This document shows positions 15,738 to 32,930 of a DNA stretch of 53,884 bases, in pieces. This DNA comes from Planctomycetota bacterium (GTDB lineage Bacteria; Planctomycetota; Phycisphaerae; Phycisphaerales; Phycisphaeraceae), in assembly GCA_024279865.1 (NCBI GenBank), contig JAJRRC010000017.1, forward strand, positions 1 through 53,884, given 5' to 3'. How positions within the stretch are numbered: position 1 is the first letter of the stretch; each line of letters starts with the position of its first letter. Made by a program: the position numbers and the translations under genes. A model generated the notes under the pieces. It was given only the letters and a program-made list of their open reading frames with translations. It did no database searches and was not told where the DNA came from.

Positions 15738-16559
15738 ATGGTTTTGAATGTAAAATACACCATGGGCGTTTTATTTCTCAGCAGCGTTTTTGTGTTGCCT
15801 TGCTTGGGACAGATTGATGCGGTGAGTCGCGCTCGTCATGACCTGAAGCTGGGGTTTACCGTGCCGGGCCGGGTGTTGAATCGTTTCGTCCATCCGGGCG
15901 ACCGCGTCAAAACGGGCGAACGCTTGATCGAACTCGAAGACAAAGAAGGTCTTGCCCAGATTGAAATTTGGCAATTTCGGTCTCAAAGCACCGTGGCCAT
16001 TGAACAAGCTCAGGCCAGTTTGGAACTGGCCCGAACCGAAGAAAAACGCACCCGTGAACTCGTCGCCAAGCACGCGGCCGTTCCCTTTGAACTCAAGCGA
16101 GCGGAGCTGACCACCAAGGTTCAGGAATTGGCCTTGATCAAAGCACAGATGGAGCAAGTTGAAGCCAAGCTTCAATTGGAAATCACCCGCGCCCGCCATG
16201 ACAGTTATACCCTCTTGGCACCGATGGGCGGCCGCATTGAATTGATCCTCGTGGACAAAGGTGAAGTCGTCGAAAATCTCAAACCCGTGGTGCAACTCGT
16301 CGTGACCGATCCTTTGAGAGTCGATGCCCGCGTCCCGCTGGAACAAACCAAAACCTTAAAAGTCGGCAATCAAGCATGGGTCCAATCCGGACAAACCAAA
16401 CAAATTGTCGTTGGCAAAATCATCCACATGGCAGAAGTTGCCGACTCCGCCAGTGATACCCTGCTCGTTCGGGTGGAATATCCCAACCCGCAATTACACA
16501 CCGCAGGCGAACAGGTCATCGTTTACCTGACAGAACCCAAAGGCGTCACCAGCGAATGA
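15738..16559 (+). CDS. HlyD/RND-type periplasmic adaptor protein
   Basis: I take the ATG at 15738 (AAGG nine bases upstream), giving 273 residues with a signal peptide (about 1-25, ending FVLPCLGQ). The open frame upstream reads through the palindromic element and is not protein-like. After the signal comes a lipoyl-type half (FTVPGRVLNRFVHPGDRV), a coiled-coil hairpin (about 75-150) and the second lipoyl half with LLAPMGGRIELI. Such adaptors link an inner-membrane pump to an outer-membrane exit. It overlaps the next gene in ATGA and forms one operon with it; no pump permease or ATPase is visible next to it. Confidence 0.85.
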   Translation: MVLNVKYTMGVLFLSSVFVLPCLGQIDAVSRARHDLKLGFTVPGRVLNRFVHPGDRVKTGERLIELEDKEGLAQIEIWQFRSQSTVAIEQAQASLELARTEEKRTRELVAKHAAVPFELKRAELTTKVQELALIKAQMEQVEAKLQLEITRARHDSYTLLAPMGGRIELILVDKGEVVENLKPVVQLVVTDPLRVDARVPLEQTKTLKVGNQAWVQSGQTKQIVVGKIIHMAEVADSASDTLLVRVEYPNPQLHTAGEQVIVYLTEPKGVTSE

Positions 16560-18574
16560 CACAAACACCTGCCACATCACAACCGGTCAACAGCTGGGGC
16601 CAACTGATCCATCAGGTCAACTTGTCGCCTGACTTGCTCACCTTTCACCGAGCGATTTTGGACTTGCAATGCAAAGTCGTCGGCGGCGAATATGGCGCAC
16701 TGTGGACCATGGGACCCGACAACAAACCCATTATCAAAGCAGCTTGGCCAGCCCCGCTGGAAAACAGTGAAGCAGCCTCGACCGTGCGCGAGCTTTTGGA
16801 AAAAAGTGTCCAGGGAGGCTTTGAACGCAAAGTCAGCCATGTCCTCAAAGTTGCCCCTGAAGGGTCAAACGATACGCCAGGCATCGGCGCTCATGTGTTC
16901 GTGACCGTGCTACGATCTGGCGAAGAAATCGCAGCCGTCACCACCGTCGTCGCAGACTGTCAAGACCCCAACCTGTTACAAAGCACATTGCCGATGCGGG
17001 AACTTGCTGGCGGACTGTACGAAAACTTTATGCTTCGTCAGCAGATCATCCAGACCGCCACCGAAGCGGATCAGGTCCGTAGTGCCATGGCCTTGTTGGC
17101 GACCTCCCAAGAAGCCGAGGGCTTTAAAGGCGCTGCTTTGAATCTGGTCAATGAACTGGCGAGACAACTCAAGTGCGCCCGCGTGACACTGGGCTGGATC
17201 AAAGGGCGTGGCATCACCCTTCGGGCCATGAGCGATACCGAGGAACTCAAACGTCACAGTGAACATGCCCGCTTGTTGGAACTGGCCATGGGGGAATGTC
17301 TGGATCAAGAGCAACCGATCATTTACCCCTTTCCTGTGGGAGCTGAACCCCTGCTCACCGAAGCTGTCACCTACGCCCATCGAAAACTCGCCGGGCCTGA
17401 CAGTGGCATCTACATTGTTTCGATTCCATTGCGTTTGCGTGATGAATGGCTAGGCGTGTTAACCCTGGAACGTGAAACGCCGATTGATGGCCTATTGGTC
17501 ACGCAACTGCAATTGCTCGCCGATGTGATTGCCCCTCAACTGGCAGACCGCTATGAAACCGACCGCTGGCTCACGGGCCATGCGTGGAACAGCGTCAAGT
17601 GGGCTGCTTCTTATTTGGTCGGTCCCAAGCATGTGGTTTGGAAGATGGTTGCGGTGTTGGTTTTTCTTTGCCTCATGTTCGTGGCGTTGGGAAAAATGCC
17701 TTTTAAGATTTCTTCGGAATTCACCTTTGAAGCCCAGTCCAAGCGGATTGTCCCGGCCCCGTATGAAGGAGATTTAGCCAAAGTTCATGTACGACCTGGC
17801 GCAGCCGTCGAAGCGGGCCAAGTTTTAGCACAACTCAATGCCACGGAACTCAAATTACAATTGGCCGAATCCGCCAGCCAACTGCGCGTTTCTTTACTTC
17901 AACGCCAGCAAGCCCGAGCGGAAAATGAAATCGCCACCGCTCAGCAGGCTGCCGCCACCATCAAACAGATTCACGCCCGCATTGCCTTGCTTGAATACCA
18001 AATTGAAAAGTCCGTCATTCGTTCGCCCATTGATGGCGTGGTCCTTGTCGGCGATTGGTACGACAAAGTCGGCGGCGTTGTGGAAAAGGGCAAGCCCATG
18101 TTCGAGGTCGCTCCACTTGAAGACCTCATTCCTGTTTTGCGTGTGAGCGAAGAAGACATTGATGAGCTTCAAAAATACATTAGAACCAATGGTGCGTTTC
18201 CAACAGGCAAGCTCACCACGCGAAGTCAGCCTGATCAGGATTTTGAATTTTTCGTCCGTCGCATTGTTCCACTGGCAACTTCGGTCAACAATGCCAATGT
18301 GTTTGAAGTCCGTAGCCGTCTGGCGGTGGGCGATTGGTCTGCGAACAAGGAATACCAGGCCAATCAAACGGTCGTCCATGATGGGATTCTTTATCGAGCC
18401 GCCCGCGACAGTCAAGCAGTCTCTCCCCAAACCGATGACCAAATTTGGGTTCGAGCCAATTGGCTTCGCCCGGGCATGGAAGGCCTCGCACGTGTAGACA
18501 TGGGCAAACGCCCCATCTGGTGGGTCGCCACCCATCGCATCACCGACACCCTTCACTTATGGACATGGTGGTAA
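16556..18574 (+). CDS. GAF domain and HlyD-type adaptor fusion protein
   Basis: The 672-residue product has GAF-like sensory sequence in the N-terminal half (about 25-160 and 175-330), one membrane segment (about 360-380, KMVAVLVFLCLMFVALGKM), and then a HlyD-type adaptor: lipoyl half (about 395-430), a coiled-coil (about 430-490) and the returning half (IRSPIDGVVLVGDW). The GAF part should be cytoplasmic and the adaptor part periplasmic. Residues about 591-636 look like a small carbohydrate-binding CBM5/12-type module (W-x5-Y-x5-VV-x3-G-x-LYRAARDS...W). It follows the first adaptor with a 4-base overlap. It may couple export to a bound cytoplasmic signal; substrate unknown. Confidence 0.8.
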   Translation: MTQTPATSQPVNSWGQLIHQVNLSPDLLTFHRAILDLQCKVVGGEYGALWTMGPDNKPIIKAAWPAPLENSEAASTVRELLEKSVQGGFERKVSHVLKVAPEGSNDTPGIGAHVFVTVLRSGEEIAAVTTVVADCQDPNLLQSTLPMRELAGGLYENFMLRQQIIQTATEADQVRSAMALLATSQEAEGFKGAALNLVNELARQLKCARVTLGWIKGRGITLRAMSDTEELKRHSEHARLLELAMGECLDQEQPIIYPFPVGAEPLLTEAVTYAHRKLAGPDSGIYIVSIPLRLRDEWLGVLTLERETPIDGLLVTQLQLLADVIAPQLADRYETDRWLTGHAWNSVKWAASYLVGPKHVVWKMVAVLVFLCLMFVALGKMPFKISSEFTFEAQSKRIVPAPYEGDLAKVHVRPGAAVEAGQVLAQLNATELKLQLAESASQLRVSLLQRQQARAENEIATAQQAAATIKQIHARIALLEYQIEKSVIRSPIDGVVLVGDWYDKVGGVVEKGKPMFEVAPLEDLIPVLRVSEEDIDELQKYIRTNGAFPTGKLTTRSQPDQDFEFFVRRIVPLATSVNNANVFEVRSRLAVGDWSANKEYQANQTVVHDGILYRAARDSQAVSPQTDDQIWVRANWLRPGMEGLARVDMGKRPIWWVATHRITDTLHLWTWW

Positions 18575-18586
18575 AAAAGCAGAATG

Positions 18587-18620
18587 TTTTTTTAAGCTAT
18601 CAGCTATCAGTAAGAGTAAG
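18587..18620 (+). repeat. Left flank repeat of the S23-type gene unit
   Basis: A T run followed by AAGCTATCAGCTATCAGTAAGA is repeated in inverted form at 19028-19074, bracketing the frameshifted four-helix-bundle gene. Solo copies occur at 29931-29952 and 32891-32930. Confidence 0.75.
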
Positions 18621-18640
18621 AATTCAGAAGGAATCACCAG

Positions 18641-18995
18641 ATGAAGTTTGAAGAAATGGATATTTGGAAAAGATCTGCCTGGCTTTCAGCGGAGTTGTAT
18701 AAACATTTTTCCCAGACCAAGGACTATGGCTTTCGTGACCAAATTACGCGTTCAGGCTTATCGATTCCCAGCAATATTACAGAAGGCTCTGAAAGAGGTT
18801 CCGACAAAGATTTTGCTCGATTTCTCCAATACGCAAAAGGTTCCTGTGGAGAACTAAGAACGCAGGGTTATATCGGAATGGACCTCAACTATTATCCCAC
18901 AAGAAACTGGAAAACATTGGATACAGGAAACACAAGAATTATCCGCCATGCTCGCTAGCTTTATTAACACAATCCGAAACCAAACAGAATCGTAA
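18641..18995 (+). pseudogene. Four-helix-bundle (S23 / 23S rRNA intervening-sequence type) protein, frameshifted
   Basis: The reading frame begins MKFEEMDIWKRSAWLSAELY and carries the family signature with SIPSNITEGSERGS, as expected for the roughly 120-residue four-helix-bundle proteins often coded in 23S rRNA intervening sequences. After about residue 85 it leaves the family pattern and stops at 18958. Shifting by one base in the TATCCCACAAG stretch restores a family-like last helix (QELSAMLASFI) that ends with TAA at 18993-18995. A one-base insertion in the CCC run is the simplest explanation. The gene is bracketed by inverted repeats and splits the adaptor operon. Function of the family is not settled. 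Confidence 0.8.
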
Positions 18996-19027
18996 AAAAC
19001 AAACCATCAGCCCTCCGAATTCGATTC

Positions 19028-19074
19028 TCTTTTCTTACTGAAAGCTGATAGCTAAGAGCTAATAGCTAAAAAAA
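19028..19074 (-). repeat. Right flank repeat of the S23-type gene unit
   Basis: On the minus strand it reads T8, AGCTATTAGCTCTTAGCTATC, AGCTTTCAGTAAGAAAAG, matching the left flank in inverted orientation. It ends directly at the ATG of the M50 gene, so it has displaced whatever ribosome binding site that gene had. Confidence 0.75.
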
Positions 19075-21240
19075 ATGGAACGACCTACTTTTAGTCCAAA
19101 TTGGAGCCGCGTCAGTCGATTGACCCCGACGTTGCGGCCGCACGTTCAGATGACCCGGCAACTGTTCCGTGGTGAGCCGTGGTACGTCGTGCATGACCCG
19201 ATCAGTAACAACTTCTTTCGACTCAACCCCGTGGCTCACCATTTCATAGGCCTCCTCGACGGCAAGCGAACCGTCGATGAGGCCTGGACGCTGACCATGG
19301 ACCGCTATGCCGATGCAGCGCCAACCCAAAATGAATCTGTCCATCTGCTAGGCCAACTCAATCAGTCCAACTTGCTACGCGTGGACTTGCCCGTCGATGC
19401 CCAGCCATTGCTCGAACGCGCCCGACGACGAAAAATGGGCCGTTGGACCGGGCAGGCCATGAGTATTTTGTTTATCAAAATCCCCCTGTTCAATCCGAAT
19501 CAAATGCTCGATTGGCTGACCCCTCTGGCGAAACCACTTCTAAACAAAGTGGGGTTGATCCTTTGGGCCATCTGGCTGATCTACTGCGGCCTCCAGTTTG
19601 GACCGCACCTAGGAGCCTTTATCCACAATGCTGAAAGTGTGCTATCGCCTACAAACTGGGGTTGGATGATTCTGCTGTTCATCGTCACCAAAGCGATCCA
19701 CGAACTGGGCCATGGCCTCGTCTGTAAACACCTCGGCGGCGCGGTCCCCGAAGTCGGCATCATGATGTTGATTATGATGCCCGCGCCCTACGTCGATGCC
19801 ACCAGCTCCTGGAGCTTCTCCAGTCGCTGGCAACGATTTCTTGTCAGTGCTGCGGGCATGATGTTTGAACTGGCCATTGCCGGGGGCGCTGCGCTGGTCT
19901 GGCTGTATGAAACCCAACACAATCCCGGATCACTGACCCAGCAATTGGCCTACAACATCGTCTTTTTGGCCTCGATCACAACCATTCTGTTTAACGCCAA
20001 TCCGCTGCTGCGATTCGATGGCTATTACATGCTGGCGGACTTCCTGGAAGTCCCCAACATGTATGACCGGGCAACCAAACACATCCAATGGATCATCCAA
20101 CGCTACGCCTATGGCCTTGAAAATGCCATGCCCGTGAGTACCTCTCAAAGTGAACAATGGATCTTGCTTGGCTACGGCATTACCAGCCAAGTCTACCGCC
20201 TCTTTGTCCTCACCGGCATCATCCTGTTCATCTCAGGTCAACTGCTCACCCTCGGCCTGCTGCTGGCAGCGTGGTCCTTTATTGCCTGGGCATTGGTCCC
20301 GCTGGGCAAACTGATTCGCTGGCTGTTCACCAGCCCATTCCTCATAGAACACCGCATCCGTGCTGTGGGTGTCACGGTTGTTACATTGGCAATTTTCCTG
20401 GGGGTCGTCGGCTTGCTTCCTGTTGACGAACACAAACGCACCGAAGGCGTGGTTCAAAGCGCCGTCCGCATGGATATTGCTGTGCAAACCGATGGCTTTG
20501 TTTCGGAGGTGCTTGTGAGCCCAGGTGAAAAAATCACCCAAGGTCAAATCATGATCCGCGCTGAAAACCCTTCACTGCGATCACGCCAAGCAGAACTCAA
20601 AGCAGAACTCGTTCGCCTAACCATCGAACAACGTAAATCACTGGTCGAAGATCCCGTCGCCACACGCATCACCAAAGCACAAGCACAAGCCATCCATGAA
20701 GAACTCAATGATCTGGAACATCGCATTGACAGCTTGATCCTGCGATCGCCACAAACAGGCATCCTCATCGGCCAAGCACTCAACGAACTTCAAGGCCAAT
20801 ATCTCACGCGAGGCCAAGTCATCGCACGTGTGGTGGACCTCAAACAATTGCGAATCACAGCCTTGGTGAGTCAATCCCAAAGCGCTGCTGCTTTTTTCAA
20901 AAACATCCGCCAGGTGGAATGCCGCCTCGCAGGTAATTTGCCTGTGACGTTTGAGAGTGAATTGCTCAAGGCTTTTGATTCAGGACGCAATTATTTGCCT
21001 CATCCGGCCCTTGGACAACATGGTGGCGGACAGATTGCCATGGATGCACAAGATTCACAGGGTCGTCGCACGTTGCGGCCGCAATTTGAAATGTGGCTCA
21101 AACTGCCTGAACAAACGGCCACCAGTCGAGCTTTGCTCGGGCAACGGGTCTACATTCGCTTTACACTGCCCAAACGCCCCCTGCTTTGGCAATGGATCAC
21201 CAAAGCCAAACAAGTCATTCAAGATCGATTACAGTTGTAA
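19075..21240 (+). CDS. Membrane M50-type metalloprotease-like protein with PqqD-like and adaptor domains
   Basis: The 721-residue product has three parts. Residues about 18-105 resemble the PqqD-like winged fold (GEPWYVVHDPISNNFFRL ... LLDGKRTVDEAW). A multi-helix M50/site-2-protease-like membrane domain follows (about 150-430), with HELGH at 209-213 and a later NPLLRFDGYYML segment supplying the third ligand. A HlyD-type lipoyl and coiled-coil region fills about 450-710. The start lies directly at the end of an inserted repeat and has no ribosome binding site; family-like sequence begins within a few residues, so the ATG is kept. It belongs with the two adaptors upstream. Whether it cleaves a protein or works as an export platform cannot be told. 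Confidence 0.82.
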   Translation: MERPTFSPNWSRVSRLTPTLRPHVQMTRQLFRGEPWYVVHDPISNNFFRLNPVAHHFIGLLDGKRTVDEAWTLTMDRYADAAPTQNESVHLLGQLNQSNLLRVDLPVDAQPLLERARRRKMGRWTGQAMSILFIKIPLFNPNQMLDWLTPLAKPLLNKVGLILWAIWLIYCGLQFGPHLGAFIHNAESVLSPTNWGWMILLFIVTKAIHELGHGLVCKHLGGAVPEVGIMMLIMMPAPYVDATSSWSFSSRWQRFLVSAAGMMFELAIAGGAALVWLYETQHNPGSLTQQLAYNIVFLASITTILFNANPLLRFDGYYMLADFLEVPNMYDRATKHIQWIIQRYAYGLENAMPVSTSQSEQWILLGYGITSQVYRLFVLTGIILFISGQLLTLGLLLAAWSFIAWALVPLGKLIRWLFTSPFLIEHRIRAVGVTVVTLAIFLGVVGLLPVDEHKRTEGVVQSAVRMDIAVQTDGFVSEVLVSPGEKITQGQIMIRAENPSLRSRQAELKAELVRLTIEQRKSLVEDPVATRITKAQAQAIHEELNDLEHRIDSLILRSPQTGILIGQALNELQGQYLTRGQVIARVVDLKQLRITALVSQSQSAAAFFKNIRQVECRLAGNLPVTFESELLKAFDSGRNYLPHPALGQHGGGQIAMDAQDSQGRRTLRPQFEMWLKLPEQTATSRALLGQRVYIRFTLPKRPLLWQWITKAKQVIQDRLQL

Positions 21241-29930: not shown

Positions 29931-29952
29931 TCTTTTCTTACTGATAGCTAAC
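29931..29952 (-). repeat. Solo copy of the S23-flank repeat
   Basis: TCTTTTCTTACTGATAGCTA on the plus strand matches the right flank of the S23-type gene at 19028-19074. Confidence 0.55.
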
Positions 29953-32890: not shown

Positions 32891-32930
32891 TTTTTTTTAA
32901 GCTATTAGTTATCAGCCTTCAGTAAGAAGA
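32891..32930 (+). repeat. Solo copy of the S23-flank repeat
   Basis: It reads T8, AAGCTATTAGTTATCAGCC, TTCAGTAAGAAG. It matches the left flank at 18587-18620 and begins at the gpsA stop codon. Confidence 0.65.

Follow-up and report, generated by a model that had tools for sequence, protein, structure and literature searches.

A small planctomycete unit of an S23 gene between inverted heptad arrays is very likely a copy of a mobile DNA element

Introduction

Among the closest described counterparts of the locus reported here are the 23S rRNA IVSs with an S23p ORF (Coxiella, Leptospira), in which the S23 gene lies within terminal inverted repeats, ~430 nt in total. In Coxiella two or three GACAGAT heptads precede the ORF, their number varying with the strain, and Warrier et al. 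cite earlier proposals that IVSs are mobile (PMC4990558). The S23 domain is also present in rRNA insertions of CPR bacteria (PMC11270868), and S23 genes have been noted inside operons, CRISPR loci for example (PMC3936711). The unit that we describe, from a stretch of planctomycete DNA analysed at its full length of 53,884 nt (the window; contig JAJRRC010000017.1), likewise has an S23 gene and inverted ends; but whereas IVSs are located in rRNA, where RNase III cuts them out of the transcript, units of the window type lie in protein operons or intergenic sites, and have inverted arrays and gene-less dispersed copies.

Other described systems resemble it in part. REPIN/RAYT systems combine a repeat-flanked gene with hundreds of matching gene-less repeats, many in convergent pairs, in the same genome. 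The window genome likewise holds gene-less convergent pairs of the element's repeat (at 16 of 26 loci), but the window protein is a four-helix bundle and not a Y1 (HUH) transposase, and the ends are tandem 7- to 9-nt arrays and not REP hairpins. With MITEs and insertion sequences the unit shares inverted ends, and related elements show a 5-bp duplication; it differs in having no recognisable transposase, only the S23 gene between its ends, and in the element-specific sequence of those ends. To DGR Avd, with which PF05635 has been linked (PMC10053308), S23 is related in fold and sequence, but reverse transcriptase is absent from the window genome and most genomes searched. Finally, dispersed heptamers are known from Xanthomonas (GGGAATC) and Nostoc (GGGGATT; PMC4692102) and from Beggiatoaceae (TAACTGA; PMC4679880). 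They too are intergenic 7-nt tandem arrays, with 70 and 75 convergent pairs in Xanthomonas, and we group the cyanobacterial STRR with them; Elhai 2008 and Mazel 1990 reportedly treat cyanobacterial repeats. Neither PMC4692102 nor PMC4679880 mentions an S23 gene (0 occurrences), and that the published heptamers are the same thing as S23 arrays is our inference.

Results

An S23 gene with inverted heptad arrays separates two operon genes

The unit occupies 18587-19075 of the window, ~490 bp laid out as heptad array, S23 gene and inverted heptad array. It and its surroundings comprise:

16556..18574, + strand: upstream neighbour, GAF + HlyD adaptor gene
18587..18615, + strand: left end, T-run and heptad array (AGCTATC)x2 AGTAAGA; contig C53 holds a 100% match to the unit's first 29 nt
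18641..18958, + strand: S23/IVP four-helix-bundle gene, readable part, 105 codons, the last ~22 out of frame; PF05635 98.1 bits, E 4e-28, cut-off 33.8
18894..18995, + strand: C-terminal remainder of the S23 gene, in a different frame
19033..19075, - strand: right end, inverted heptad array, extending to the M50 start
19075..21240, + strand: downstream neighbour, PqqD/M50/HlyD gene
29935..29949, - strand: single degenerate arm (TTCTTACTGATAGCT)
32891..32927, + strand: single arm (T-run, AGCTATTAGTTATCAGCCTTCAGTAAGA)

The curated profile score meets membership of the PF05635 / S23 family. The arms at 18595-18615 and 19033-19053 are 95% complementary across 21 nt; as an ungapped inverted match they score 18, and none of 1000 shuffles scored above 11. 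Rfam found no rRNA around the element in the 3.5 kb surrounding it (L001); it lies between two protein genes.

An initial annotation made from sequence alone had described an S23-type gene with flanking inverted repeats, a claim that held by profile match and arm score. Its frameshift held as well, the C-terminal part being readable in the other frame; the shift lies near 18890-18896, where a real frameshift and an assembly error cannot be separated. That the right repeat reaches the M50 ATG was confirmed, the right arm entering the start (AGCTAATAGCTAAAAAAAATG). Loss of the M50 ribosome binding site was not shown, because several relatives' intact GAF-M50 junctions, read by eye, also lack an obvious Shine-Dalgarno. 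The solo repeats placed near 29931 and 32891 are real single arms, though they do not form a pair. Overlooked was that the repeat is a tandem array of a 7-nt unit, AGCTATC.

The same annotation had held that the GAF-adaptor and M50 genes would otherwise be adjacent. Of 41 genomes (the window genome and 40 relatives), 33 have an M50 match, and 27 of the 29 relative loci fetched had a GAF match upstream. The GAF-M50 gap is at most 245 nt in all 27, against 500 nt in the window; as 245 nt is too short for the gene we take these junctions to be S23-free. Adjacency thus held, the S23 gene having no counterpart in 27/27 comparable junctions, and conservation of the S23 order in relatives, named beforehand as a refuting outcome, was not seen. 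These short junctions, together with the empty sites of related elements below, support the description of the unit as a small mobile cassette. For the window copy itself the flanks are too diverged to determine a target duplication.

Some relatives' junctions contain arrays but not the gene. That of G003 has AAGCGAAG octads as an inverted pair, and G003's own S23 element is built on this unit; that of G011 holds AAAGTCA/AAGTTAA, resembling the array of its own S23 (AGTTAAA); that of G008 is possibly also array-bearing and gene-less; and that of G012 holds GGACTCC heptads (period 7), yet no S23 was detected in G012. With array insertions in several relatives (L057, L044, possibly L054, and L041, respectively), the junction is a possible hot spot.

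Arrays flank most of the S23 loci scored

PF05635 is present in 28 of the 41 genomes, in 86 places altogether. These, with 80 named loci (the best of 592 candidates encoding relatives in one contig scan) and five viral contigs, make 171 S23 loci, which were scored for tandem units of 5-12 nt, both flanks summed and inversion not required. Arrays flank 146 of the 171 (106 strong, 40 weak, 25 without) but only 17 of 196 control stretches (3 strong, 14 weak, 179 none; Fisher 1e-54). Among the first 86 loci, 41 left and 35 right flanks had a tandem score of at least 12; random windows reached it in 3 of 120 cases, shuffles in 0 of 258. The unit is of 7 nt at 109 strong or weak loci, 8 nt at 35 and 9 nt at 2. 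The arms lie close to the gene at most loci, and inversion, listed locus by locus, is usual, not universal. Named hosts include Planctomycetes, Bacteroidetes, Cyanobacteria, Proteobacteria, Clostridia, candidate phyla and Methanophagales archaea.

Units vary among elements, even inside one genome (GTGGAAA and GGGTCTG in G014; CGGGTTC and AGCCATC in G029), and both their sequence and their length track the S23 protein tree. When 144 array-bearing proteins are arranged on a FastTree tree, the period (7, 8 or 9) changes 15 times, compared with a mean of 32.7 and a minimum of 27 in 200 shuffles; strong arrays alone give 11 changes, compared with 24.4 when shuffled. Unit identity declines with tree distance among 108 heptad loci (Mantel rho -0.24, 0/999 permutations), an effect that is significant but modest.

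Filled and empty sites

Where filled and empty sites can be compared, the sequences show relatives of the window element to be insertions made up of the gene and both its arrays. On plasmid C of Trichormus variabilis ATCC 29413 an S23 gene lies between two conjugation-region genes. Ten plasmid records cover at least 80% of this locus: three filled (ATCC 29413, strain 0441 and Scytonema NIES-4073), six empty, and one, Nostoc C052, a decayed remnant whose right arm is missing. Against each of the four empties read (L245, L246, L247, L250) the insert measures 423 bp, 5 bp (GTAAT) are duplicated, and the arrays arrive together with the insert. Aulosira NIES-50 carries, at a different place, a copy 84% identical to the Trichormus element and with the same unit; on plasmid3 of this strain the site is empty. 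Comparison of Nostoc ATCC 53789 pNsp_a with C057 p057_H gave a duplicated TTCTA, read by eye since the script's local alignment ended early; this and GTAAT, resolved automatically, belong to one protein clade. Five further filled/empty sets (the Calothrix, Aulosira, Nostoc C052, Tolypothrix and Picosynechococcus elements) have empty counterparts but give no duplication, because their flanks are too diverged. On a plasmid of Picosynechococcus PCC 7003 an S23 gene (L273:1492-1848) splits cas10-cmr3 of a type III-B CRISPR operon, the site being empty in PCC 7002 pAQ6. No empty site was found for the Riemerella plasmids in four records.

We rejected the idea that S23 genes insert into pre-existing arrays, since none of the four empty sites read for the Trichormus element contains one.

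The left array of the Scytonema copy is 14 nt, two heptads, shorter. Unit-wise length changes of this kind suit the published view of heptamer repeats, applied here as chance or polymerase slippage beside an ordinary gene; many genomes have an excess of heptamers, and slippage has been proposed (PMC4679880). The inverted layout, the control rate of 17/196 and the empty sites without arrays speak against this explanation, which we regard as all but excluded.

Gene-less copies are dispersed in the host genome

AGCTATC in tandem has 281 matches in the 3.42-Mb window genome (at most 2 mismatches) and its reversed control none; in the 40 relatives it has at most 32, and in 37 of them at most 5. At the same 2 mismatches the G003 unit has 504 matches at home and no more than 14 in other genomes, and the G024 unit 878 in G024, 63 in G023 and no more than 10 elsewhere. 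In these three genomes, then, dispersed gene-less copies match in sequence the unit found at the S23 gene of the same genome. For the G003 octad and for the G030 octad AGGCACGG, reversal yields nearly a rotated form of the unit, so that the G003 evidence is the between-genome comparison and not the control, and the G030 octad, weakly dispersed with 34 matches and an equal control, is uninformative as a fourth test of specificity. In G037 the reversed G024 pattern, used as a control, has 255 matches, which looks like another dispersed heptad family met by accident.

Further copies of gene and repeats, which the initial annotation proposed seeking in the genome, were found in part: repeats are plentiful, but in the window genome, which is 95.7% complete, copies of the ends but no second PF05635 gene were detected. 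Because the sole copy of the gene detected carries a frameshift, the arrays that belong to it may be stranded or relict.

We examined 26 distinct array loci of the window genome, drawn from the first 100 of the 281 places (30 rows minus 3 duplicates and the element itself). At 16 an opposite-strand partner lies within 900 bp, always convergent, as in the gene-bearing unit, and never divergent; the other 10 have no partner at 3 mismatches. All 16 pairs are shorter than 600 bp, with short, mostly unrelated interiors, and their ends have (AGCTATC)n-AGTAAGAG in common. No target duplication is evident by eye at these miniature copies.

A regulatory rival would have the unit now immobile: S23 would control its own expression or that of its neighbours by way of the arrays, which would serve as operators or as RNase III substrates and would owe their inversion to that role. 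The closeness of the arms to the gene at most loci and the cut made by Coxiella RNase III at the first heptad (PMC4990558) favour it; the empty sites, the target duplication and the hundreds of dispersed copies oppose it, and we hold it very unlikely.

Conserved residues of S23 accompany arrays

A structure model of the L160 protein (built from 40 sequences, pLDDT 96) has helices at 12-30, 33-60, 63-89 and 95-121. It matches Xcc0516 (2gsc; TM 0.85-0.90) and also BT_0352 (2rld), and resembles DGR Avd structures with TM 0.72-0.78 (4dwl 0.78, 8ube 0.76, and others); S23 also has a sequence match to PHROG 3206, the Avd family (E 1.5e-9). S23 forms a homopentamer in Xanthomonas and is not known to have a catalytic motif.

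Q42, S49 and E79 are present in all 106 strong-array proteins, N53 in 102, R45 in 98 and E56 in 96; a GxxRxxxSxxxNxxE motif was noted earlier (PMC3936711). From their spacing we infer that the others share a single face of helix 2, E79 being part of helix 3. In a tally of 167 of the 171 loci (four proteins below 80 aa omitted), Q42, S49, N53 and E79 are all intact in 102/106 strong, 36/39 weak and 12/22 array-less cases (arrays vs none, Fisher 2e-6, for loci that are related by descent and so not independent). The exceptions mostly form one array-less clade, EKSGLAAxMRR (L035, L036, L113, L117, L119, L130, L139, L142, L144), which has lost Q42 and N53, and often S49, and looks domesticated.

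Candidate catalysts

The resemblance to Avd raises a retro-element rival, in which S23 would act as Avd does, with a reverse transcriptase working in trans on a hairpin transcript. The match in sequence and fold, extending to the DGR RNP fold, is in its favour, as is the closing of the element RNA on its arms (MFE -114.4, z -2.3). Against it, RVT_1 (reverse transcriptase) has no match in the window genome or in 25 of the 40 relatives, among them G003, with its 504 octad matches, and G033, with seven S23 genes; we consider this rival unlikely. Y1_Tnp was found in 33 of the 41 genomes; G030 and G038 lack Y1 yet have array-bearing S23, and the two Y1 matches of the window genome lie away from the element, the gene between its arms being PF05635. 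Being absent from S23-bearing genomes, neither RT nor Y1 is needed as a partner in the present genome. S23 itself, an enzyme common to all bacteria or another transposase family remain as candidates, and the catalyst is not shown.

A further rival makes S23 a passenger: it merely rides a MITE-like element, whose heptads are bound by an ordinary transposase in trans. The 5-bp duplication and inverted ends suit a DDE-type reaction, S23 is without a known catalytic motif, and gene-less array pairs exist in the window genome. Set against this are the presence of one gene between arrays at 146/171 loci in many phyla although the units differ, the tracking of the S23 tree by unit length and sequence, the loss of invariant residues mainly where arrays are absent, and the size of the 16 dispersed pairs, too short for a usual transposase gene. 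We judge the passenger explanation improbable.

Discussion

We consider it very likely (probability about 0.85) that the window unit is a copy, now probably crippled, of a family of small S23-bearing mobile DNA elements; movement has not been observed. Several points count against the mobile reading: 25 of the 171 S23 loci have no array; only two duplications were resolved, in one clade, and none is evident at the miniature copies; G012 has period-7 junction arrays without a detected S23; the G030 octad is weakly dispersed; and in Xanthomonas 90% of comparisons placed the GGGAATC repeats between the same genes, with no link to IS elements (PMC4692102).

Under the mobile-element reading the most likely role of S23 is to recognise the arrays and to drive movement, perhaps even as its catalyst, an inference made without an identified catalyst or an observed event. 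An S23 oligomer would recognise arrays of its own unit type, join the two ends, either as DNA or as an arm-folded hairpin transcript or single strand, and drive insertion with a 5-bp stagger. Gene-less array pairs would be moved in trans, like MITEs or REPINs, and array length would alter by whole units, as expected of slippage. The cutting active site would be either the invariant polar set of S23 or that of some unidentified host enzyme.

A bolder reading, which we think less likely than not, makes S23 itself a new recombinase, a pentameric four-helix-bundle enzyme making 5-bp staggered cuts at ends of its own heptad, with an active site formed by the helix 2 face Q42-R45-S49-N53-E56 and helix 3 E79. 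If it were true, a single class of mobile element would have given rise to rRNA IVSs, to orphan "four helix bundle" genes and to the heptamer repeats of cyanobacteria and Xanthomonas, and perhaps also to DGR Avd.

We call this kind of element new because it meets no tested defining set: it is not an IS, a REPIN/RAYT or a DGR, and it fits the IVS except for the rRNA location. Under stricter filing an IVS-like label would also be tenable. A paper joining S23 genes with a general heptad-array rule was not found in the open-access literature searched, which is no proof of absence. Since the Coxiella IVS has published heptads, IVSs look like members landed in rRNA, and the rRNA IVSs are recast as one landing site within a wider family. 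The mobile reading further offers a class of function, mobility, for a large family annotated "four helix bundle protein" or "S23 ribosomal protein"; a possible explanation for hundreds of intergenic heptamer repeats in unrelated bacteria; an alternative reading, as insertions, of S23 genes inside operons such as CRISPR loci (PMC3936711; compare the cas10-cmr3 case); and a small transposon without a recognised transposase.

Other S23 loci

An S23 clade with the motif FENLxVYQKAxxFAD (L028, L031, L032, L111) is without clean inverted arrays; at five such loci Rfam found no rRNA but, at four, a tRNA gene a short way upstream. The clade is perhaps a settled, vertically kept copy. Among 50,697 phage records none matched the L013 protein, although five IMG/VR viral contigs (L155-L159) carry S23 genes, three of them (L156, L157, L159) with inverted heptad arrays. 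L132 has a 9-nt unit, and some arrays are very long, that of L219 exceeding 100 bp on both sides, with L198 and L168 in the same group.
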